This document shows positions 24,500-39,464 of a stretch of 64,000 bases of DNA, in pieces (the stretch's first letter is position 1; every line of letters starts with the position of its first letter). This DNA is from Labilibaculum manganireducens (GTDB lineage: Bacteria > Bacteroidota > Bacteroidia > Bacteroidales > Marinifilaceae), in contig NZ_MVDE01000011.1 of the NCBI RefSeq assembly GCF_002843385.1, forward strand, positions 1 to 64,000, in the 5' to 3' direction. The position numbers and the translations under genes were made by a program. The notes under the pieces are model-generated. The model was not told the DNA's origin and searched no databases. It saw only the letters and a list, made by a program, of their open reading frames with translations.

Positions 24500-27166
24500 A
24501 TGAATACAGTAAATATACAGATTGCGCTAAATAGGATTGAAGAAGCTAGAAAATACGATACAAGCCATTTAAATTTAAGTGGTTTACAGCTCACAGAAAT
24601 TCCGACGGATATTTCGGATATGAACTTTTTAGATTCAATTGATTTAAGTTTTAATAAATTTGTGGAATGCTCAGATATGATTTCAAAATTATATTCCTTA
24701 TTAAGTTTGAATATTAGCAATAATTATTTACAAGATATTTGCTTTGATTTTTATAAAGAGTATTCAATTAACGAAATTGATATTTCATCTAATTTATTTT
24801 ACAGAATCCCTTATAATCTTTTACAATTTGATGAAAATAAGATTTGTATTTATTTTGATAATAACCCATTTTTAGATTCTATCCCAATTGAAATCTCCAC
24901 AGAAGGAAATTTATCATATATCGAGTTTTACCTTGATTCTTTAAAGTCCCAGGATAAGACAAAAAGATTATTTGAAACAAAACTTCTAATTGTTGGTAAG
25001 GGGAGTGTAGGTAAAACAACTCTTGTAAAAACTTTGAATGATCCTGAATATAAAGTGAAAATAGGAGAGGAAAATACAACGGAAGGAATAAATATAAATA
25101 GATTATATGAAACAGTATATTTTCCTGCCCATAAACCTTACTATTCTTTTTTTAATGATAGAGAGAATCTGTATGAATATGATGAAGGTTTAGGAAATGA
25201 ACAGGATAAAGAGTCATATATATATATGGGGGATATTTCTTCTTATGGTGAAGGGTTTTCAGATTATGTTGATATATTGAAAGAGCCATATTTAGAAGGA
25301 GAGATATTTGTAGAAAAAGATATAAAAATAAATGTATGGGACTTTGGAGGACAAGAAATATTGTATTCTACTCATCAGTTCTTTTTGACGCAAAGATCCT
25401 TATACATATTTGTTTGGGAACCTCGTGCTGATAATGAGGAAGAAAGTTTTGAATACTGGTTGAGTATTATTCAGCGTCTTAGTAAAAACTGCCCAGTTAT
25501 TATAGTTATGAACAAAGCAGATATACGAATTAAAAGTATTGATGAAAAAAATTATCTAGATATATTTAAGAATATCGTCGGCTTTTTTAATATTTCTTGT
25601 TTTACAAAAGAGGGGATACAAGAACTTAAACGACAGATACGAGAAACTATTTCAAAATTGCCACACTTAGGTGATAGGTTGCCACAAACATGGGAGAATA
25701 TTAGAGAAGAATTAGCAAGAAAAGAATTAGATTACATCACTTTTGATGATTTTAAAGAGATTTGTGGATTTAATGAAATTGAGAAAGTAAATCATCTAAG
25801 TGGGTATTTAAATGATTTAGGAGATATAATTTATTTCAAAGATGATATTATGCTAAATAATTTAGTAATTATAAATCCACATTGGTTGACGAAGGCTATA
25901 TATCAACTCATTCATTCATTGCAAGTACAGAAAAACAATGGACTGTTTGAAGCTAATAATTTATCCAAATATTTGAATGATAAACAATATCCCAAAGGGA
26001 AACATTATGAACTTTTATCATTAATGGAAAAATTTGAAATTTGTTTTAAAGTGATTGGTTCAAGTAGTCTTTATGTTATTCCAACATTACTCAAAGCGCA
26101 ATCCCCTTCTATTGAAGAACTTGATAGGTTTAGGATATCAGAAGCGTTAAGATATAAAGTAAGGTATAACTTTTTACCTTCTGGTTTAATTGAAAGATTA
26201 ATATGTCGTTTGAATAATCATTTAGAGGATAGTCTTTTTTGGAAATATGGAGCCATTTTTAATTCTGAAACATGCAGAGCGTTAGTTGAATTAAATAAAA
26301 TCAAGAAGTCTATAAATTTATATATTATAGGTGAAATGAAATCACATTTATATACAATTATTACTCATGAGCTTAATCAGATTCATATAGATTTAAAGCT
26401 AGAAAAGATTGATTATAAAGAATTGTATGCATGTAGTTGTGTTGATTGTTTAGAAAGTAATCATCCATACATGTTCGAAAAAGAGCTTCTTGCGAAGTAT
26501 ATAATTAAGGGAAGGAAATTAATTGATTGTCGAAATAGTTTAGAGCAAGTTGATATTGAAGAATTAATGATCGGGTATAAATCGGTAAAGGCCAAAGAAA
26601 GCCTTATTAGAGATTTTGTGTCAGCGTCTTCTCAATTGCAAACAAGATTAGATTTATTAAAAGGTTTTAATGAAAATCAAATTAACACATATTTCCAAGA
26701 TCTAATGAGGCAGTATCTTTCTAGTAAAAAGCTAACACTGAATGAGCAATCCCTTAAAGGTAGATCTGAATCAGGTAAAAATCAAGGGGAATTAGATATT
26801 GCAGTTGAAACAATTGAAGGTAATACAATCTCGTTTTTTGAAGGTTTTATATTAGCAGGATTAAATACAAAAATAATTGAAACGCATTTAAATAAGTCCA
26901 TGTTAAATTATGACTCGAATGGGTTAAACGAAAAATATGTTGGCATATATAGTCGAGCGAAGAATTTTTCGTCTTTAAGTGCAAAGTATAAAAATTATAT
27001 AGATGGAATACAAATAGAAAATGTTGAAATTGAAAGCTCAGAAGATATATCTAATATTTATGTGAACGGATCTGAAATAAGAGTAATTAGAACCAAATAT
27101 AGAAGAAATAAAATTCAGCTTAACTTATATCATTTACTTATAAATATTTATACAGGAGATTATTAG
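24500..27166 (+). CDS. Roco protein: LRR-Roc GTPase-COR with nuclease-like C-terminus
   Basis: 888 residues. Domains in order: leucine-rich repeats (about 20-145; HLNLSGLQLTEIP, SIDLSFNKF, EIDISSNLF); Roc GTPase (160-390) with P-loop GKGSVGKT (166-173), DFGGQ (281-285), NKAD (338-341) and an unusual Tyr/acid-rich insert of about 70 residues after switch I; COR domain (about 395-690) ending in the CSCVDC cluster (645-650); then about 170 residues with a candidate PD-(D/E)XK pattern: E749, GELDIAVE with D766, and FFEGF with E781. The usual catalytic Lys is Phe783, so activity is uncertain. It is a lone gene, strikingly AT- and ATA-rich beside its neighbours, between two housekeeping blocks, which suggests horizontal gain. 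Roco proteins are dimeric G proteins acting as regulated switches. A sensor-nuclease defence role is inference. Confidence 0.85.
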   Translation: MNTVNIQIALNRIEEARKYDTSHLNLSGLQLTEIPTDISDMNFLDSIDLSFNKFVECSDMISKLYSLLSLNISNNYLQDICFDFYKEYSINEIDISSNLFYRIPYNLLQFDENKICIYFDNNPFLDSIPIEISTEGNLSYIEFYLDSLKSQDKTKRLFETKLLIVGKGSVGKTTLVKTLNDPEYKVKIGEENTTEGININRLYETVYFPAHKPYYSFFNDRENLYEYDEGLGNEQDKESYIYMGDISSYGEGFSDYVDILKEPYLEGEIFVEKDIKINVWDFGGQEILYSTHQFFLTQRSLYIFVWEPRADNEEESFEYWLSIIQRLSKNCPVIIVMNKADIRIKSIDEKNYLDIFKNIVGFFNISCFTKEGIQELKRQIRETISKLPHLGDRLPQTWENIREELARKELDYITFDDFKEICGFNEIEKVNHLSGYLNDLGDIIYFKDDIMLNNLVIINPHWLTKAIYQLIHSLQVQKNNGLFEANNLSKYLNDKQYPKGKHYELLSLMEKFEICFKVIGSSSLYVIPTLLKAQSPSIEELDRFRISEALRYKVRYNFLPSGLIERLICRLNNHLEDSLFWKYGAIFNSETCRALVELNKIKKSINLYIIGEMKSHLYTIITHELNQIHIDLKLEKIDYKELYACSCVDCLESNHPYMFEKELLAKYIIKGRKLIDCRNSLEQVDIEELMIGYKSVKAKESLIRDFVSASSQLQTRLDLLKGFNENQINTYFQDLMRQYLSSKKLTLNEQSLKGRSESGKNQGELDIAVETIEGNTISFFEGFILAGLNTKIIETHLNKSMLNYDSNGLNEKYVGIYSRAKNFSSLSAKYKNYIDGIQIENVEIESSEDISNIYVNGSEIRVIRTKYRRNKIQLNLYHLLINIYTGDY

Positions 27167-31869: not shown

Positions 31870-33978
31870 TTATTTGTTTTTGTTAACAGGCAAAGAAAAA
31901 TACATTTCTGTACCCACGCCAACCTTGCTTTTTGCCCATATTTGGCCATCGTTTTTACGAACAAATTCCTGACAAAGAATCAAACCCAATCCGGTTCCTT
32001 TTTCTTCGTTGGTTCCTACGCGTTGAATGTTCTTTTCAATCATAAAAAGATTATTCATTATTTGTTCACTCATGCCAATACCGGTATCGCGTATACAAAT
32101 TTCAAACACGCCATTCTTCAATTTTCCGGTGAGGGTAATCACACCTCCTGTATTAGAGAATTTAATGGCATTATTAAATAAATTGGAAACAACTATTTTA
32201 ATGGTTTCCTTATCGGCCCACACTGTTTGTGCATCATCGATATTATTTAGGACATTAATTTTTTTTATTTCAGCCGCCGCCATGTTTGGTAAGATGCCTT
32301 CTTCTACCAGATTCTTTATTAGGTGTACCTCTTTATTCAATGAAATAAATCCACTTTGTGATCTGGACCATGTTAATAAATTTTCGAGCAGGGAATAGGT
32401 CGATTTTGAGGCATCTCCAACGTGATTGATCATTTCCAGACGTTCATCATCATTATAGTCATTGTAATGATGTGCTAATTCGTTATTAAAACCAATAATT
32501 GCAGTAAAAGGACTTTTTAAATCATGAGCAATAATAGAGAAAAACTTGTCTTTAGTCGCATTTAACTTTTGAAGGTTTTCTTCGCTTACTTCTAATTTTT
32601 TGATATTGTCCTCCAGAAGTAATTTTTGTTCATTAATAAGTTTATGCTGTGATTTTAAAATGATATTGTTCTTTTTGGATCTTAAAAAGTAAAATGCCAC
32701 AATTGCAATCGAGAGAATGAGTATAACAATAGCAAGCAAAGCCAGTGTGTACTTGTTTTTCATGATAATAGCAGCATTCTCGGCCTGTTGATTTTTAAGT
32801 GCCAATTCAAGCTGTTGCTTCTCTATTTCATTCTTAGCCTTTTGTTCTTCAAATTCAACCAAATACTCAGCTACTTTCTCACTTTTTAAAGAATCGATGG
32901 CATTATTTGCCTTTTGCAGCGATTTGTATGCTTGTTTATGATCTCCAATTTGTGAATAGGCTTTGGCACTCATCTTATAAATTTCAGGATATTCTTCCTG
33001 TACACCAATAGAATCGGATAATTTTAAGCATTTATCGAGAACGTGAATACTTTCGGAGTACTTTTTTTGTTTGAAAAGCATTTCTCCTTGTTTGCGGTAT
33101 GCACGCGCCAAGATGTGCTGATAATTATTCTTGATACAAATTTCGCTGGCTTTATCAATATAGTATTTTGTTGAATCAAAATTGTTGATGCCATTGTAAT
33201 ATCCCGATAAGGACAGATACAGATAGGATAGAACGTATTTGCTGTCAATTTTTGGAAGCAAGGATTTAATTTTCAGGTAATCGGACTTAGCCTCTTTAAA
33301 TTTTTGATTTTCTACCTTTAAAACCCCAATATTGGAATAGGAAATGGCTAAATCTCCCACGTTAGTGGAATTTTGTTCCAAAGCAATGGATTTTTGAAAA
33401 TAATTTAAAGCCAATTCATAATTATCGAGTCGTTTGTAAATTGCACCAATGTTGTTGCAGCAAACAGACAAACTGGTTGTATCCTTTAATTTTTCTGCAA
33501 TTTCAAGTGCTTTTAGATTATAATTAAGACTTTTTAATTGATTTGATTCATAGGAAGCCAAATAACTCATGCCACTGTAACAATCCAATAGGTTGACGGA
33601 ATCTTTTTCCTGAATAAATTGACTAAGAGCCTTATTGAAATTTTCCATTGCCGGCTTTAATTTTGCATCTTGAATTAGTGCGCGGGCAGTGTATAAATGG
33701 GATACAGCCAAACCATGATCGTAATTAATCTTCTGAGCCAGCAGCATTCCTTTTTGGCTGTAACGCAGAGAACTGTCAATACTTATACCTCCAAATAAAT
33801 AAGCCATTTGATTGTAATTATCTACAAGCTGTTCTTGGTTCGATTCAATTCGGTTCTGCTTCTGTAAAGAATCAATTTGAAATTGCTCGCTGTTTTGAGC
33901 CATTGAAAGGAATGTAAGGCAAAAAAAGCAGAGACAGAACAGGGCTATTTTGAATGGAAATACTTTTTTCATCATCAA
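31870..33978 (-). CDS. TPR sensor histidine kinase
   Basis: 702 residues. A signal/anchor (about 1-28) is followed by five or more tetratricopeptide repeats (for example LSVCCNNIGAIYKRLDNYELALNYFQKSIAL), a membrane helix (YTLALLAIVILILSIAIVAFYFL), a coiled coil, the HisKA dimer domain with phospho-acceptor His485 in SIIAHDLKSPF, and an HATPase_c domain with N-, G1- and G2-type motifs (DTGIGMS, GTGLGL). There is no receiver or DNA-binding domain and no adjacent response regulator, so it is an orphan kinase with a periplasmic TPR sensor. Three Met codons stand at the start (33978, 33975, 33972). Confidence 0.9.
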   Translation of the reverse strand: MMMKKVFPFKIALFCLCFFCLTFLSMAQNSEQFQIDSLQKQNRIESNQEQLVDNYNQMAYLFGGISIDSSLRYSQKGMLLAQKINYDHGLAVSHLYTARALIQDAKLKPAMENFNKALSQFIQEKDSVNLLDCYSGMSYLASYESNQLKSLNYNLKALEIAEKLKDTTSLSVCCNNIGAIYKRLDNYELALNYFQKSIALEQNSTNVGDLAISYSNIGVLKVENQKFKEAKSDYLKIKSLLPKIDSKYVLSYLYLSLSGYYNGINNFDSTKYYIDKASEICIKNNYQHILARAYRKQGEMLFKQKKYSESIHVLDKCLKLSDSIGVQEEYPEIYKMSAKAYSQIGDHKQAYKSLQKANNAIDSLKSEKVAEYLVEFEEQKAKNEIEKQQLELALKNQQAENAAIIMKNKYTLALLAIVILILSIAIVAFYFLRSKKNNIILKSQHKLINEQKLLLEDNIKKLEVSEENLQKLNATKDKFFSIIAHDLKSPFTAIIGFNNELAHHYNDYNDDERLEMINHVGDASKSTYSLLENLLTWSRSQSGFISLNKEVHLIKNLVEEGILPNMAAAEIKKINVLNNIDDAQTVWADKETIKIVVSNLFNNAIKFSNTGGVITLTGKLKNGVFEICIRDTGIGMSEQIMNNLFMIEKNIQRVGTNEEKGTGLGLILCQEFVRKNDGQIWAKSKVGVGTEMYFSLPVNKNK

Positions 33979-34228
33979 TTCTTTGGTAGGGTGCGAAAAT
34001 AGCCAAAAAAATAAAATATATCAGATTTACAGAACATCTTTTGATCTTATATTGAGGAAACAAGCCGTTAATTCCTGTATCCCGACCAAGGGAAATTTTT
34101 CGTTCACAAATAATGGCTTTTCTTGTGAAAACAGTCTGCTAAAATTCCCAATCATTGGTTCATTTTAGTACGGAAGGGTTAAATTCTATATGAAAACCCT
34201 CTTTTCGTTGCTATAGAGCGAAATACAT

Positions 34229-34255: not shown

Positions 34256-35320
34256 TCAAAACCATTTTCTTTTCTTAAAATAGATGAGCATTATTACAGC
34301 CAAAATGATCATTACCATCCACATAATAAAATAGCTGTATTCGTAATGAAGTTCTGGCACAACATCGAAATTTGTGCCATAAATACCCGCAATAAATGTG
34401 AGAGGAATAAAAATGACTGAAAAAATGGTTAAAAATTTCATGATGTCATTCAGCTTGCTGCTTATGGTTGTGTGGTAAATCGTAAGCTGGTCGGAGAGGA
34501 TTTCACGATAACTGTCTGAAGATTCCGTTGCCTGATTAATGTTATCCTGAAGCTCTTTAAAATGAACATCTGTAGAGTAGGCTATTAATTCCGATTCCAT
34601 TTTCGAGAGGTTCAGGATCATTTCTCTTGCGGGTTTAATGTTTTTCCGCAAAAAGTTTAATTCACGTTTATAGGAATTAATATCGTCAATCACCGACTGT
34701 TTTGGTTCCAGCAGCAGGTTTTCCTCCAAGGTTTCGATTTTTTCCCCAAGCACACTAATGATATAGATATAATTATCGATTACAATATCCAGTAAGGCAA
34801 AAGCAAGATAATCTGTGCCCGAATTACGTATTCGTTTTTTATGCTTTCTTATTCGTTCGCGTACAGGTTCAAAAACATCACCTTTTATTTCCTGAAAGGT
34901 GATTAAAACATTTTCTGTGATGATTAAACTTAAATTTTCAACCTGAATTAAATCTGTTTCATTATCCTGCCGCAGCATTTTTATGGAAATGAAAATGCAA
35001 TTGTCGTACTCCTGCACTTTAGGACGTGCATGGGTATTCATTACATCTGCCATAATAAGCTGTTCGAAATTAAAGTCTTTTGCGATTTCCTGCATAATGT
35101 CTGTATTATGAATTCCATCGATATTAAACCAGGTTACGGAGTCTTTTTCTTGGTATTTTGGCACTTCGCTTACTGTTTTAACAGCATTCTCTTCCAGATT
35201 ATTGGCATCGAAATCGATAACCCGCAACAACACATTATCTATTTTTTGTTCTCCCCGAAACAGTAATTCATCCGGCGAAATACCTATTTCCTGTTTTGTT
35301 TTTAATATAAATCGTGCCAT
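34256..35320 (-). CDS. CorA-family divalent-cation transporter with GTN in place of GMN
   Basis: 354 residues from the ATG at 35320; the frame stays open to a TTG at 35350. A long cytoplasmic alpha/beta funnel domain is followed by a stalk helix and two C-terminal membrane helices (about 295-315 and 325-345). Between them, where the signature YGMNF normally forms the selectivity filter, this protein reads YGTNF. CorA proteins import Mg2+ (Co2+, Ni2+); the Met to Thr change may alter ion choice. Spaced from rsgA by repeat copy 1. Confidence 0.85.
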   Translation of the reverse strand: MARFILKTKQEIGISPDELLFRGEQKIDNVLLRVIDFDANNLEENAVKTVSEVPKYQEKDSVTWFNIDGIHNTDIMQEIAKDFNFEQLIMADVMNTHARPKVQEYDNCIFISIKMLRQDNETDLIQVENLSLIITENVLITFQEIKGDVFEPVRERIRKHKKRIRNSGTDYLAFALLDIVIDNYIYIISVLGEKIETLEENLLLEPKQSVIDDINSYKRELNFLRKNIKPAREMILNLSKMESELIAYSTDVHFKELQDNINQATESSDSYREILSDQLTIYHTTISSKLNDIMKFLTIFSVIFIPLTFIAGIYGTNFDVVPELHYEYSYFIMWMVMIILAVIMLIYFKKRKWF

Positions 35321-35476
35321 AGGTTTGCTCTTATATTTTAGTTTTTTCAAATTCCTTACTGTATGGTAATTTCCAGTAATACTTAAATGTAGCCATCATA
35401 CACAACATGGCAATGGAATTATATGAAAAGATATTGGCAGCTATTTTAGGTGTTGGTGAAGTGGGAGAGAACAGAC

Positions 35477-35587
35477 ACCTCAACCCCGGCCCTTCTCCTC
35501 GAGGAGAAGGGAGCCTTCTTTCAAAAAAAATGTTTTGATACAGGAGCTGTATTCTCCTCTCCTTAAAGGAGAGGGATAGGGTGAGGT
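35477..35587. repeat. structured intergenic repeat, copy 1
   Basis: Core of 111 bp. An outer imperfect inverted repeat (ACCTCAACCC at the left, GGGTGAGGT at the right) encloses two hairpins: a perfect 22-nt palindrome at 35490-35511 (centre CTCGAG) and a 9-bp hairpin at 35556-35574. Similarity to the other copies extends left to about 35451 (GTTGGTGAAGTGGGAGAG) and right to about 35598 (TTTTGAAAAGT). Confidence 0.92.
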
Positions 35588-35637
35588 TTTGAAAAGTTAT
35601 GGAGCGAACAAACTGTTGACGTGCTGAAAGAGATAAG

Positions 35638-35661
35638 AAAAGCCAACGTGAGGTGGCTTTT
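35638..35661 (-). terminator. rsgA terminator
   Basis: AAAAGCCA and its complement around an 8-nt loop, 22 bases past the rsgA stop on the minus strand. Confidence 0.75.
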
Positions 35662-35682
35662 ACTATTGTATTAGTATACTGT

Positions 35683-36750
35683 TTAGAACTTATTGTCTTT
35701 TCTTTGTTTTTTTACATTTTTCACCATCTTGCCAAAACTTTTATCCTTTTTTTTCTTTTCTTGCACAGTCGATTCAAAATGTGTTTTTTCCCGGTGCATT
35801 TTCTGAAAGTTCGCATATGAGTTGGGATCAATTTCACCATTTTCAACAGCTTCTAAAATCGCACAGCCTTTTTCGTGTTGGTGGGTGCAGTCTTTAAACC
35901 GGCAATTTTCTGCATATTCCATAATGCCGTCGAACGTTATTTCTAAACCACTGGCCGTGTTTGCAATTCCAACTTCCCGCATCCCTGGGTTATCGATTAA
36001 AATCCCGCCATTTTCGAGCACGATTAATTCTCTGTGGCTGGTAATGTGTTTCCCTCGGTCGATACTTTCGCTGATAGCTCCTGTACTCATTAGTTCTTTA
36101 CCGCTTAGCTTGTTTAGCAGTGTCGATTTTCCCACACCCGAGGAACCCAGCAAACAATAGGTTTTCCCCGTATTTATTAGTGTTGCTAATTGATCCAGTC
36201 CGGTATCCGATTCATTGCTGATGGCAATTACAGGAACATCTTTTATGCGTTCCGCAATCAGATTTAGAAAAGTTTCCAACTCGGCAGCAGTAATTAAATC
36301 AATTTTGCTAAGAAGTATAATTGGTTCCACATTAGAAGCATAACAAATGGTCAAATACCGTTCTAAACGGTTGATATTAAAATCGCGGTTAACAGACTGT
36401 ACAATTATGCCGTAATCGATATTTACTGCAATTATTTGTACCTGTCCTGATTTGCCAACTGCTTGCCTCTCAATTACTGAACTGCGGGGGTAGATGGCAT
36501 GAATGAGAGTTTTTCCTTCATCGAATTCAGAAAATGCGACCCAGTCGCCAACGGCCGGAAAGTCATATCTGCTCTCTGCTGTAAAGCGCAAATTACCTAT
36601 TAATTCAGAATCAAACTCATTTGTTGGAGTTTTTACAACATACCTTTCCTTGTGTTCCGATATAACCCTACCTATAGCAAATGAATCTAAATTTTGTTCA
36701 ATTCTATAGCTTTCAAGTGTGTGGTTGTATCCCAAATCTTCGTAAGTCAT
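35683..36750 (-). CDS. rsgA: ribosome small subunit-dependent GTPase A
   Basis: 355 residues. An N-terminal OB-fold (ERYVVKTPTNEFDSELIGNLRF) is followed by a circularly permuted GTPase in which the base-recognition motif (LLSKIDL) precedes the P-loop (GSSGVGKSTLLNKLSG) and switch II (DNPGMREVG). The C-terminal zinc domain is C-x5-C-x-H-x5-C-like (CRFKDCTHQHEKGC). It assists late 30S ribosome maturation in the cytoplasm. A lysine-rich tail ends the protein. Repeat copies flank the gene on both sides (copy 2 upstream, copy 1 downstream). Confidence 0.95.
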   Translation of the reverse strand: MTYEDLGYNHTLESYRIEQNLDSFAIGRVISEHKERYVVKTPTNEFDSELIGNLRFTAESRYDFPAVGDWVAFSEFDEGKTLIHAIYPRSSVIERQAVGKSGQVQIIAVNIDYGIIVQSVNRDFNINRLERYLTICYASNVEPIILLSKIDLITAAELETFLNLIAERIKDVPVIAISNESDTGLDQLATLINTGKTYCLLGSSGVGKSTLLNKLSGKELMSTGAISESIDRGKHITSHRELIVLENGGILIDNPGMREVGIANTASGLEITFDGIMEYAENCRFKDCTHQHEKGCAILEAVENGEIDPNSYANFQKMHREKTHFESTVQEKKKKDKSFGKMVKNVKKQRKDNKF

Positions 36751-36886
36751 TATTATTGTGTTTAATAGTAGTTGAATATGGCTGTTTATTGAATTTCAAT
36801 TTAGCCATCTTTCCCAATTGCACCAAAAAATTTCAGGAAAGATATTGCAACGATTCCAGATGTTGGTGAGGTGGGAGGGAACAGAC

Positions 36887-36997
36887 ACCTCAACCCCGGC
36901 CCTTCTCCTCGAGGAGAAGGGAGCCTTCTTTCAAAAAAAATGTTTTGATACAGGAGCTGTATTCTCCTCTCCTTAAAGGAGAGGGATAGGGTGAGGT
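36887..36997. repeat. structured intergenic repeat, copy 2
   Basis: Core identical to copy 1 by eye, with the same 22-nt palindrome (36900-36921) and the right hairpin. The left flank (from about 36830, TTTCAGGAAAGATATTGCA) also resembles the left flank of copy 3, so the unit may reach some 60 bases further left. Confidence 0.92.
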
Positions 36998-37176
36998 TTT
37001 TGAAAAGTTGCGGATTTCTTATGGTGGTTTGTTTTGGAACTTGTTTGTTTTTGTTGGTGTTCGGAAGCGCTGATGGGAAAGATATACCGCTCGAAAGTTT
37101 TTGAAAGAGTTGCTGGATTATTTGCTTGTTGAGATTGAGTAATTTTTGAAATAGTACAACTTGATAAAGTAAAAAG

Positions 37177-37204
37177 AAAAGGCATCTCTATGGAGCTGCC
37201 TTTT
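37177..37204 (-). terminator. peroxiredoxin terminator
   Basis: AAAAGGCAGCTC and GAGATGCCTTTT (one mismatch, 4-nt loop) on the minus strand, 17 bases after the stop. Confidence 0.85.
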
Positions 37205-37221
37205 TCGGTATTGATTAAGAA

Positions 37222-37926
37222 TTAATCGAGAATTTCTTCAATTGTAATGTAATCACCAACACGTCCAGTCATTTTTTCTGCATCAGTATTAACAGGAAGC
37301 GTTTTTTTTCCTGGTCTCCATCCTGCAGGACAAACTTCTCCTGTTTTAGTTGCATGTTGCCATGCCTGCACTTGACGTAGAAATTCATTAACATTTCTAC
37401 CTACAGAATCAGCTTGCACTTCCTGTGCTACACAAATTCCATCAGGGTTAAATAAGAATCTACCACGCAGTGCTACACCTTCTTCTTCGATAAGTACACC
37501 AAATGCACGGCTTACTTCCTGATTTCCATCAGCACCTATGGTTAGTCTTAAACCTTTAAGGATTGGTTCAGTTTCAACAAATCTTTTGTGCGAAAATTTA
37601 GAATCAACTGATACAGCAAGGATTTCAGTATTTAATTTCTGAAATTCATCATATTTAGCATTCATTGCCGCAATTTCAGTTGGGCAAACAAAGGTAAAGT
37701 CAGCAGGATAGAAGCATATTACAGCCCATTTTCCTTTGTAATTATCACTCGATACTGTTGTGAAATGACCTGTGGCAGCATCATAAGCATCCATTGTGAA
37801 ATTTGGCATTTCTTGTCTTACCATTGTTGAACTCATCGTTTTTTCCTCCTTTACTAATTGATTACTATTTTTTGCATTTTCTACTTGAACTTTTTTTCTG
37901 GGTTTTAAACCTGTGTCGCATCCCAT
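37222..37926 (-). CDS. 2-Cys peroxiredoxin (AhpC type) with alternative start
   Basis: 234 residues from the ATG at 37926, or 204 from an internal ATG at 37836. Both starts have a strong Shine-Dalgarno sequence (CAGGAGG and AAAGGAGG). The conserved protein begins with the shorter form (VRQEMPNFTMDAYD). The peroxidatic Cys lies in PADFTFVCPTEI and the resolving Cys in GEVCPAGWRPG; the enzyme reduces peroxides using thioredoxin or AhpF-like donors. The 30-residue extension (MGCDTGLKPRKKVQVEN...) is basic and carries one Cys. An operator-like set of inverted half-sites lies upstream (37986-38011). Confidence 0.9.
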   Translation of the reverse strand: MGCDTGLKPRKKVQVENAKNSNQLVKEEKTMSSTMVRQEMPNFTMDAYDAATGHFTTVSSDNYKGKWAVICFYPADFTFVCPTEIAAMNAKYDEFQKLNTEILAVSVDSKFSHKRFVETEPILKGLRLTIGADGNQEVSRAFGVLIEEEGVALRGRFLFNPDGICVAQEVQADSVGRNVNEFLRQVQAWQHATKTGEVCPAGWRPGKKTLPVNTDAEKMTGRVGDYITIEEILD

Positions 37927-37985
37927 AATTTAGCCTCCTGTTTTAAATTTTATTTATCCATTTCTTATTTGATAAAGTTATTTAT

Positions 37986-38011
37986 TATTCTCCTAAAAAG
38001 AGAATATTCTC
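37986..38011 (-). promoter_or_regulatory. candidate operator upstream of the peroxiredoxin gene
   Basis: The 12-nt palindrome GAGAATATTCTC (38000-38011) overlaps a second inverted repeat, TATTCTC-7 nt-GAGAATA (37986-38006), giving three half-sites about 60-85 bases upstream of the first start codon. A redox-responsive regulator site is inference. Confidence 0.5.
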
Positions 38012-38210
38012 AATTGAAAATGTATATTTCATGATAGGGAAAATTTATAAGAATGATTTTAATTAGAAAAATGCTTCTAAATTTGTATGGTCATTTTGTT
38101 TGTTATCAGGTGGTTGTGTTTTGATAATCATCTTTCCCATTTGCAGTAAAAAATCATAAGAAAGATATAGGCAGCTATTTTAGGCATTGGTGAAGTGGGA
38201 GAGAACAGAC

Positions 38211-38323
38211 ACCTCAACCCCGGCTCTTCTCCTCGAGGAGAAGAGAGCCTTCTTTCAAAAAAAATGTGCAGATATCAGGAGCTGTATTCTCCTCACCAAA
38301 TTAGAAAAGGGATAGGTTGAGGT
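38211..38323. repeat. structured intergenic repeat, copy 3 (right hairpin decayed)
   Basis: The left 22-nt palindrome (38224-38245) is perfect but carries a T-A pair where copies 1 and 2 have C-G. The right hairpin is lost (CCTCACCAAATTAGAAAAGG). Similarity extends left through GATATAGGCAGCTATTTTAGG as in copy 1. Confidence 0.88.
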
Positions 38324-38389
38324 TTTTGAAAAGTCGCAGATTCCTTAAGGTGAATAGAATTGGCAACTGGTGAGCGGGAGAGAACAGAC

Positions 38390-38500
38390 ACCTCAACCCC
38401 GGCTCTTCTCCTCGAGGAGAAGGGAGCCTTCTTTTAAAAAAAATGTTTTGATACAGGAGCTGTATTCTCCTCTCCTTTAAGGAGAGGGATAGGGTGAGGT
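38390..38500. repeat. structured intergenic repeat, copy 4
   Basis: Full core with both hairpins. The left palindrome (38403-38424) carries a T-G wobble at the pair that is C-G in copies 1 and 2 and T-A in copy 3. Only about 65 bp separate it from copy 3, in the same orientation. Confidence 0.9.
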
Positions 38501-38543
38501 TTTAAAGATCAGAACAAAAAAATAAGGGGCTTGGAGCCATAAA

Positions 38544-38657: not shown

Positions 38658-39464
38658 TCATTTCTTTACAGTTTTCATTGCATCAAAAACCAATTTAGCA
38701 ACAACTTTTGCTCCTTTAGGTTGAAAATGCGTATTGTCTGATTGTCCTTCCGGGTAGGCTTCATATACGCCGGCGGGTAAATTCATAAAATAATTATTAG
38801 TTACATATTCCTGACCTTTCCTGCTAAAAGTATCCATAGATAATTGATTTAAATCAATAAAACAGACCTGCATTTCGACAGCAACATCCATGGCTGCTTT
38901 TGGGTATTCACCATGAACATTTTCTAAATGACTGTCTTTCCATGGGTAATTTCTGCATACAGGAGTAAGAATAATTGGAACTGCGTTCTTTTCTCTTGTT
39001 TGAGATACAAATAATCTTAGGAACTCCTTGTAGCTTTCAATATCGGTATAACGTTCCGGTTTGTTCTGTGCTGCATCATTATGACCAAACTGCATGATTA
39101 CAACATCGCCTTTTTTCAGGTTTTTACATACTGATCTCCATCTTCCTTCCTGAAAAAAGGTTCTTGTACTTCTACCTCCCCGTGCACGATCATCAATAAC
39201 AACACTGTCTGTATCGAAAATATTTTTGAAATCAGTTAAATCAGTTCCTGTAAATTGTTCCTGAAATACCTGCCCCCAGCCTGTTACCGGATATCTGGTT
39301 TTGTAATAATCTTTACCTTCTTCGTAATTATCAGCATAATCAGCTACGGTAGAATCCCCGATTAGATATATAGTCACTGGTTTCTCTTGCAAGGAAGAGC
39401 AACCGAACACAAACAAAATCAATAATAAAAGATTTCGTTGATGAAAAATTAAATTCTTTTTCAT
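38658..39464 (-). CDS. rhamnogalacturonan acetylesterase-like SGNH hydrolase (lipoprotein)
   Basis: 268 residues with lipobox FGCSS (Cys22). SGNH blocks: GDSTVADY (block I Ser), ARGGRSTRTF (block II Gly), QFGHNDAAQNK (block III Asn) and DNTHFQPKGA (block V Asp-x-x-His). This is the CE12/rhamnogalacturonan acetylesterase layout. It removes acetyl groups from pectin backbones so that lyases and hydrolases can act. Last gene of the minus-strand pectin cluster; a second, shorter homologue lies two genes upstream. Confidence 0.85.
   Translation of the reverse strand: MKKNLIFHQRNLLLLILFVFGCSSLQEKPVTIYLIGDSTVADYADNYEEGKDYYKTRYPVTGWGQVFQEQFTGTDLTDFKNIFDTDSVVIDDRARGGRSTRTFFQEGRWRSVCKNLKKGDVVIMQFGHNDAAQNKPERYTDIESYKEFLRLFVSQTREKNAVPIILTPVCRNYPWKDSHLENVHGEYPKAAMDVAVEMQVCFIDLNQLSMDTFSRKGQEYVTNNYFMNLPAGVYEAYPEGQSDNTHFQPKGAKVVAKLVFDAMKTVKK

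Follow-up and report, generated by a model that had tools for sequence, protein, structure and literature searches.

Mosaic intergenic regions with a BIME-like palindromic core in a variable gene interval of Labilibaculum, and their possible part in gene shuffling

Layout of the interval

The window analysed here is a stretch of 64,000 nucleotides on contig C11 of the Labilibaculum manganireducens draft genome (5.32 Mb, 97 contigs). In an interval from about 35.4 to 38.5 kb, four hairpin-rich repeat copies separate corA, a second rsgA, prx and a GDSL gene, all of which lie on the minus strand, opposite to the four repeat cores, which all lie on the plus strand. The related genomes compared below also belong to Labilibaculum, with one genome per species, and three of them (G006, G007 and G008) have a shared history and are not independent. 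The labels type A, type B, MPE, PDE and 190aa were coined for this analysis. From left to right, the features are:

31870..33975, minus strand: TPR-histidine kinase gene, which bounds the variable interval on the left
34256..35320, minus strand: corA, CorA Mg/Co transporter; homology in G003 and G004 confined to the coding sequence
35383..35460, plus strand: left flank of copy 1, type A, diverged; upstream of corA (minus strand)
35477..35587, plus strand: core of copy 1, BIME-like, with ends ACCTCA...TGAGGT and two inner hairpins; matches copy 2 fully over 35469-35590
35588..35666, plus strand: right flank on the 3' side of rsgA, with a terminator-like hairpin
35683..36750, minus strand: second rsgA paralogue, RsgA GTPase; other copy on contig C52, 33% identity
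36806..36872, plus strand: left flank of copy 2, type A; upstream of rsgA, best match the flank upstream of rsgA in G007
36887..36997, plus strand: core of copy 2
36998..37060, plus strand: right flank on the 3' side of prx; matches the MPE/prx junctions of G006, G007 and G008
37222..37926, minus strand: prx, AhpC/TSA peroxiredoxin
38129..38193, plus strand: left flank of copy 3, type A; upstream of prx, 95% identical to G007
38211..38323, plus strand: core of copy 3, with a decayed right hairpin; resembles G006 MPE/prx by eye
38329..38351, plus strand: may be a remnant of the 3' flank of prx, next to its 5' flank (self-junction); 21/23 positions against G006 MPE/prx, also at HK/GDSL in G002
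38352..38389, plus strand: left flank of copy 4, shortened, type-B-like by eye against L035 and L038
38390..38500, plus strand: core of copy 4
38658..39464, minus strand: GDSL esterase-like gene, which bounds the variable interval on the right

Loss of the rsgA in the window may not be lethal, because of the paralogue on C52. The flank on the 3' side of the window gene has similar sequence by rsgA in G002, G006, G007 and G008 (scores of 34, 41, 80 and 80, respectively); no such similarity was found by rsgA in G004 (score 18).

Left of the core, copies 1 to 3 have about 80 bp in common, which copy 4 lacks. GATAT-(T/A)-GGCAGCTATTTTAGG is found at 35430 in copy 1 and at 38164 in copy 3, TTTCCCA-(A/T)-TTGCA at 36810 in copy 2 and at 38133 in copy 3, and (G/A)GAAAGATAT at 36836 in copy 2 and at 38159 in copy 3. 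Compared with the orthologous left flank of G007 (95 bp), identity reaches 95% for copy 3 (E 3e-30), 81% for copy 2 (E 5e-10) and 91% over 43 bp for copy 1 (E 3e-9). The likeness among the left flanks of copies 1 to 3 is far beyond chance, and the motifs that the original prediction had pointed out in copies 1 and 3 and in copies 2 and 3 are borne out as described, but copy 1 lies outside the interval 36830-38200 to which they had been assigned. The far-left part of the flank is present in copy 1 too, in diverged form (alignment from 35383), while the alignment of copy 4 (38368-38503) begins near the core; copies 2 and 3 also have about 30-40 bp in common, at lower identity, right of the core. 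Overall, the likeness extends over some 230 bp between copies 2 and 3, over most of that in copy 1 and mainly over the core in copy 4. A further small repeat, ATCTTTCCCA, has three matches in the window against 0.26 expected: one of them lies inverted at 37074-37083, right of copy 2, and faces a copy at 36807-36816.

The palindromic core and its flanking modules

In the window, the core measures 111-113 bp and is made of two facing hairpins between the ends ACCTCA and TGAGGT. With regard to a possible RNA function of the core, copies 1 and 2 fold well (z of -3.3 and -3.4) and copies 3 and 4 weakly (z of -1.3 and -2.0), and there is little covariation (a term of 0.22 kcal, with a two-sided change in 3 of 23 pairs). 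Neither the window nor 17 further loci had a match to an Rfam family at its gathering score. A search of a plasmid collection returned eight matching records, all within prx coding positions and none in the repeat, and a search of a phage collection with the copy 1 region gave no match.

The core model matched in all nine genus genomes, with E-values that are rough. As the model was built to the outer inverted repeat, end-to-end matches alone are no proof of the ends, and the flanks of the dispersed copies were therefore compared with shuffled sequences. Among the matches listed, the 11 copies of our genome that lie outside the locus span ACCT to GAGG, and the left flank is absent from all of them (scores below shuffle thresholds); the right flank of one, L209, scores 12.5 when reversed, a value without a shuffle comparison. 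The left flank is likewise absent from the 20 full-length copies of eight related genomes, one of them marginally (L145, with a score of 11.0 for a shuffle threshold of 10.5), and the matches of these 20 copies to the 135-position profile start at position 11 or later. These counts leave out five short half-core matches of our genome (L140-L144) and a right-truncated copy in G002 (L129), which is an exception in that it retains about 40 bp of left flank. Because the flank tests in our genome and in its relatives find no left flank, we place the ends of the core at the outer inverted repeat.

The left flanks have a distribution of their own. Type A was found in seven of the nine genus genomes searched, the two others being G003 and G005; it is confined to the rsgA/prx stretch in G000, G002, G004, G006, G007 and G008, and is represented in G001 by two unplaced fragments. 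It stands without a core at MPE/prx in G007 and G008 and beside another hairpin in G004. Type B, which replaces type A at the HK, PDE and 307 junctions, is dispersed, and nine of the ten copies fetched are followed, 6 to about 270 bp downstream, by an ORF start. It is about 110 bp long, with 11-bp inverted ends TTTTATCCTTT/AAAGGATAAAA (L066, L075, L096-L104 and L167, from our genome and its relatives); six of its nine copies outside the locus in our genome are less than 700 bp from a contig end, and one copy in G007 lies directly downstream of a gene pair encoding an IS91-type transposase and a tyrosine recombinase.

As judged from these sequence comparisons, core and flank are separate elements, the flank being a module upstream of genes (type A, or type B at other junctions), which would make the long shared unit a local duplication of both. 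The original prediction had instead taken the repeat for a single mobile unit of about 200 bp, left flank included, with copy 4 as a truncated version. Flank and core are common to copies 1 to 3 and the truncated G002 copy does keep some left flank, but the 31 full-length dispersed copies examined lack it, one marginally, and the flank occurs without the core just as the core occurs with other flanks. As a general rule, a mobile unit of that length is thereby refuted, and it appears very improbable; the view of copy 4 as its truncated form is likewise not supported, the core being dispersed elsewhere without the left flank. An element ending exactly at the outer inverted repeat had been named as the finding that would speak against the longer unit, and this is close to what was found.

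Gene orders and joints in the related genomes

Read from left to right from the TPR-kinase gene, with genes on the minus strand unless noted, the order is corA-rsgA-prx-GDSL in our genome, 190aa-MPE-prx-PDE-rsgA-HK-GDSL in G006, 190aa-MPE-prx-rsgA-242(plus)-307-GDSL in G007 and 190aa-MPE-prx-rsgA-HK-GDSL in G008. The G002 locus is on two contigs, with kinase-prx-HK551-242-rsgA on one and HK-GDSL on the other, and in G004 rsgA-prx adjoin efflux genes, with no match to the GDSL cluster in the 60 kb compared. The order rsgA-prx of our genome and G004 is hence opposed to prx-rsgA in G007 and G008 and to prx-PDE-rsgA in G006. Outside the interval, the compared genes are collinear over the whole window in G006 and up to 55.2 kb in G007 and G008, with the exception of one inserted gene. 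This gene (24500-27166, 888 amino acids) has no match in the compared stretches of G004, G006, G007 and G008, although its neighbours are collinear there.

When order is counted, all 3 adjacencies with a core are broken, versus 3 of 46 for the others (p 0.0011). With unordered neighbours, the proportions are 2/3 versus 3/46 in G006 (p 0.024) and 2/3 versus 3/40 in G007 and G008 (p 0.032). Near the repeats, four relatives encode a protein of 242 aa (L035:6994-7722, L040:1538-2266, L037:1940-2668 and L039:2578-3306) that matches no Pfam or NCBIfam entry; on contigs that also hold rsgA, the two genes are oppositely oriented. The match to this protein in our genome is just 20% identical.

Synteny blocks mostly end within the repeats or at their edges. 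Block ends outside the repeats are found at 34192-34194, between the TPR-kinase gene and corA, at 36762-36767, about 40 bp from the copy 2 flank, and at 37200 in G002; joints without a core exist at rsgA/HK in G006 and G008 and at kinase/prx in G002. Flank comparisons used 20 of 25 intergenic stretches, 17 of them with a core (19 cores). Across these 17 core-bearing junctions, left flanks track the left gene (mean score of 76.8 versus 24.0, 0/5000 permutations) and not the right gene (p 0.17), whereas right flanks track the right gene (35.2 versus 11.0, 0/5000 permutations) and not the left gene (p 0.18). Since each flank follows its own gene, the joints fall in or near the core; that a flank resembles the flank of the same gene elsewhere is partly plain linkage and places the joint only between the two flanks.

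After removal of 3 decayed cores from the 19, cores of one genome resemble each other more than they do those of other genomes (permutation p 0.010); their likeness by left gene is as strong (p 0.009), and by right gene there is no significant likeness (p 0.25). Over a length of 122 bp (35469-35590 in copy 1), copies 1 and 2 agree at every position, yet their flanks differ on both sides, which suggests a recent conversion or exchange. A site that holds a decayed core in G006 is core-less in G007 and G008, where it is joined at GGTGA. As the core of copy 2 is bracketed by the 8-mer GGTGAGGT (36865 and 36990), a deletion between short repeats could also remove a core.

At three junctions, a core connects the upstream half of a gene with the downstream half of that gene, which makes them candidates for the joint that a tandem duplication or an excised circle would make by crossing-over between repeats flanking the gene. 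They concern prx in G006 (about 51 bp with gaps) and in copy 3 of our genome (23 bp), and rsgA in G007 (about 29 bp). In eight of the nine self-junction comparisons, none of 1000 shuffles scored as well; this includes the right flank of copy 3 (38329..38351) against G006 MPE/prx, with 21/23 identical positions. The failing comparison opposes G007 rsgA/242 to G002 242/rsgA, with 433 of 1000 shuffles as good. The best match of the copy 3 right flank (51.5) is nevertheless the HK/GDSL junction of G002: this flank may be of a general kind rather than one specific to prx, which weakens this example of a self-junction and reduces our confidence in the main explanation. We read the sequence common to both genomes as a tandem copy 3-copy 4 junction whose left part was exchanged, with prx and type A in our genome and HK and type B in G002.

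Rsg​A is flanked by copies 1 and 2 as direct repeats, and the original prediction had proposed that these could recombine and delete it. Recombination between direct repeats does gain credit from the permuted genes, from joints mostly in or beside the repeats, from the candidate self-junctions and from the identity of copies 1 and 2, but a simple deletion of rsgA leaving one repeat was not seen among the relatives, with one genome per species. G003, whose rsgA is only 32% identical, was ruled out as a deletion product, there being no repeat scar between its corA and prx.

Explanations and known systems

We consider it somewhat more probable than all other accounts together that genes in this interval are shuffled as BIME-like direct repeats recombine in RecA-type fashion, on a pattern similar to that of the minimal mobile elements of Neisseria. 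Each intergenic mosaic combines the upstream module (A or B) of the left gene, the palindromic core of about 110 bp and the downstream module of the right gene with its terminator. The core is itself a dispersed element, with its ends at the outer inverted repeat, and the longer shared unit would stem from intergenic regions duplicated locally around it. The cores are direct repeats because they and the main genes of the interval each have one orientation, and RecA-type crossing-over and conversion between them would have led to genes being duplicated, excised and put back together with their flanks during the divergence of the Labilibaculum species. What the comparisons show is the module structure, where the core ends, the permuted gene orders with joints mostly in or beside the repeats, the candidate self-junctions and the identity of copies 1 and 2; from these we infer the role of RecA, a circle or duplication as intermediate and any present-day activity.

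The interval could also be an insertion hot spot in which the repeats are passive: genes would come and go by other routes, such as horizontal import through homology in neighbouring genes or IS elements, and the repeats would mark the spaces because genes are copied whole with their intergenic segments. This would suit the other repeats found inside the intergenic mosaics, the IS91-type transposase gene at the start of the G002 contig with HK and GDSL, the 217-aa RAYT-like gene (below model cut-offs) near rsgA in G004 and the joints without a core. Permuted rsgA/prx orders and self-junctions are, however, hard to obtain without exchange between direct repeats, and we regard a passive role as rather unlikely. 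Still less probable is that the palindrome serves a dedicated recombination, site-specific or single-strand, either integron-like or by a RAYT acting on the hairpins. Integron cassettes are single genes of uniform orientation, with a palindromic site between them and a variable order, and their attC sites carry RYYYAAC and GTTRRRY boxes. The genes of the interval are likewise single, in one orientation, split by a palindromic site and variable in order, but a search of about 12 bases at each core end found attC boxes in none of the four cores, and an integron integrase (TIGR02249) passed its cut-off in none of six genomes. We therefore reject an integron; weaker tyrosine-recombinase matches occur in all six genomes and also in 14 of 14 controls. 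As for RAYTs, our genome does have Y1 transposase genes (five Y1_Tnp matches), but none of the five neighbourhoods, scanned about 1.5 kb to each side with a motif that recovers six of the eight hairpin units of the window, contains the repeat, and a RAYT as driver was set aside as no such gene was found beside the repeat in our genome.

To return to the shuffling by RecA-type recombination, direct palindromic repeats serve as join points of REP-mediated tandem duplications in enteric bacteria; they appear as duplication joints here too, but only as deduced from junctions in relatives. In Neisseria, PMC3898611 describes minimal mobile elements as varied whole-gene cassettes between two conserved genes, which enter by homologous recombination alone, and palindromic mosaic repeats (NIME/dRS3) as suspected promoters of exchange. 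Different whole-gene cassettes between two conserved genes are also found in our genome, G006, G007 and G008. Palindromic intergenic mosaic repeats are present as well, but they have another sequence, belong to another phylum and were compared between species; the dRS3 pattern ATTCCC(N8)GGGAAT has no match in the window with up to one mismatch. With REP/BIME/REPIN elements, as presented in PMC3733652 and PMC6006769, the core shares dispersed intergenic palindromes, facing hairpin pairs, clusters and halves, but it ends in ACCTCA/TGAGGT and has no GTAG (GT[AG]G) tag at the hairpin foot; nor was it found to flank a Y1 transposase gene of our genome, as such repeats flank their cognate RAYT gene. 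CCTC is given as a variant of the CGTC tag in PMC3733652. The CGTC-tagged REP superfamily is described by a CGTC (or TGTC/CCTC) tag, stems of 8-9 bp and head-to-head dimers; looked at beside this description, the core shows hairpins that face each other and an end similar to CCTC, with a spacer separating tag from stem.

More speculatively, and with little probability in our estimation, the core may be the dedicated site of a cassette-shuffling system of Labilibaculum, in which single genes with their upstream module and terminator would circulate as excised circles and re-insert at palindromes without an integron integrase. In the titles and abstract openings searched, neither this repeat nor shuffling of this kind in Bacteroidota was described. 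The interval offers a concrete case in this phylum of palindromic intergenic repeats as joints for changes in gene order, with candidate fossil junctions, and it illustrates that the apparent extra length of a repeat can stem from duplicated neighbouring modules and not from the dispersed element itself.
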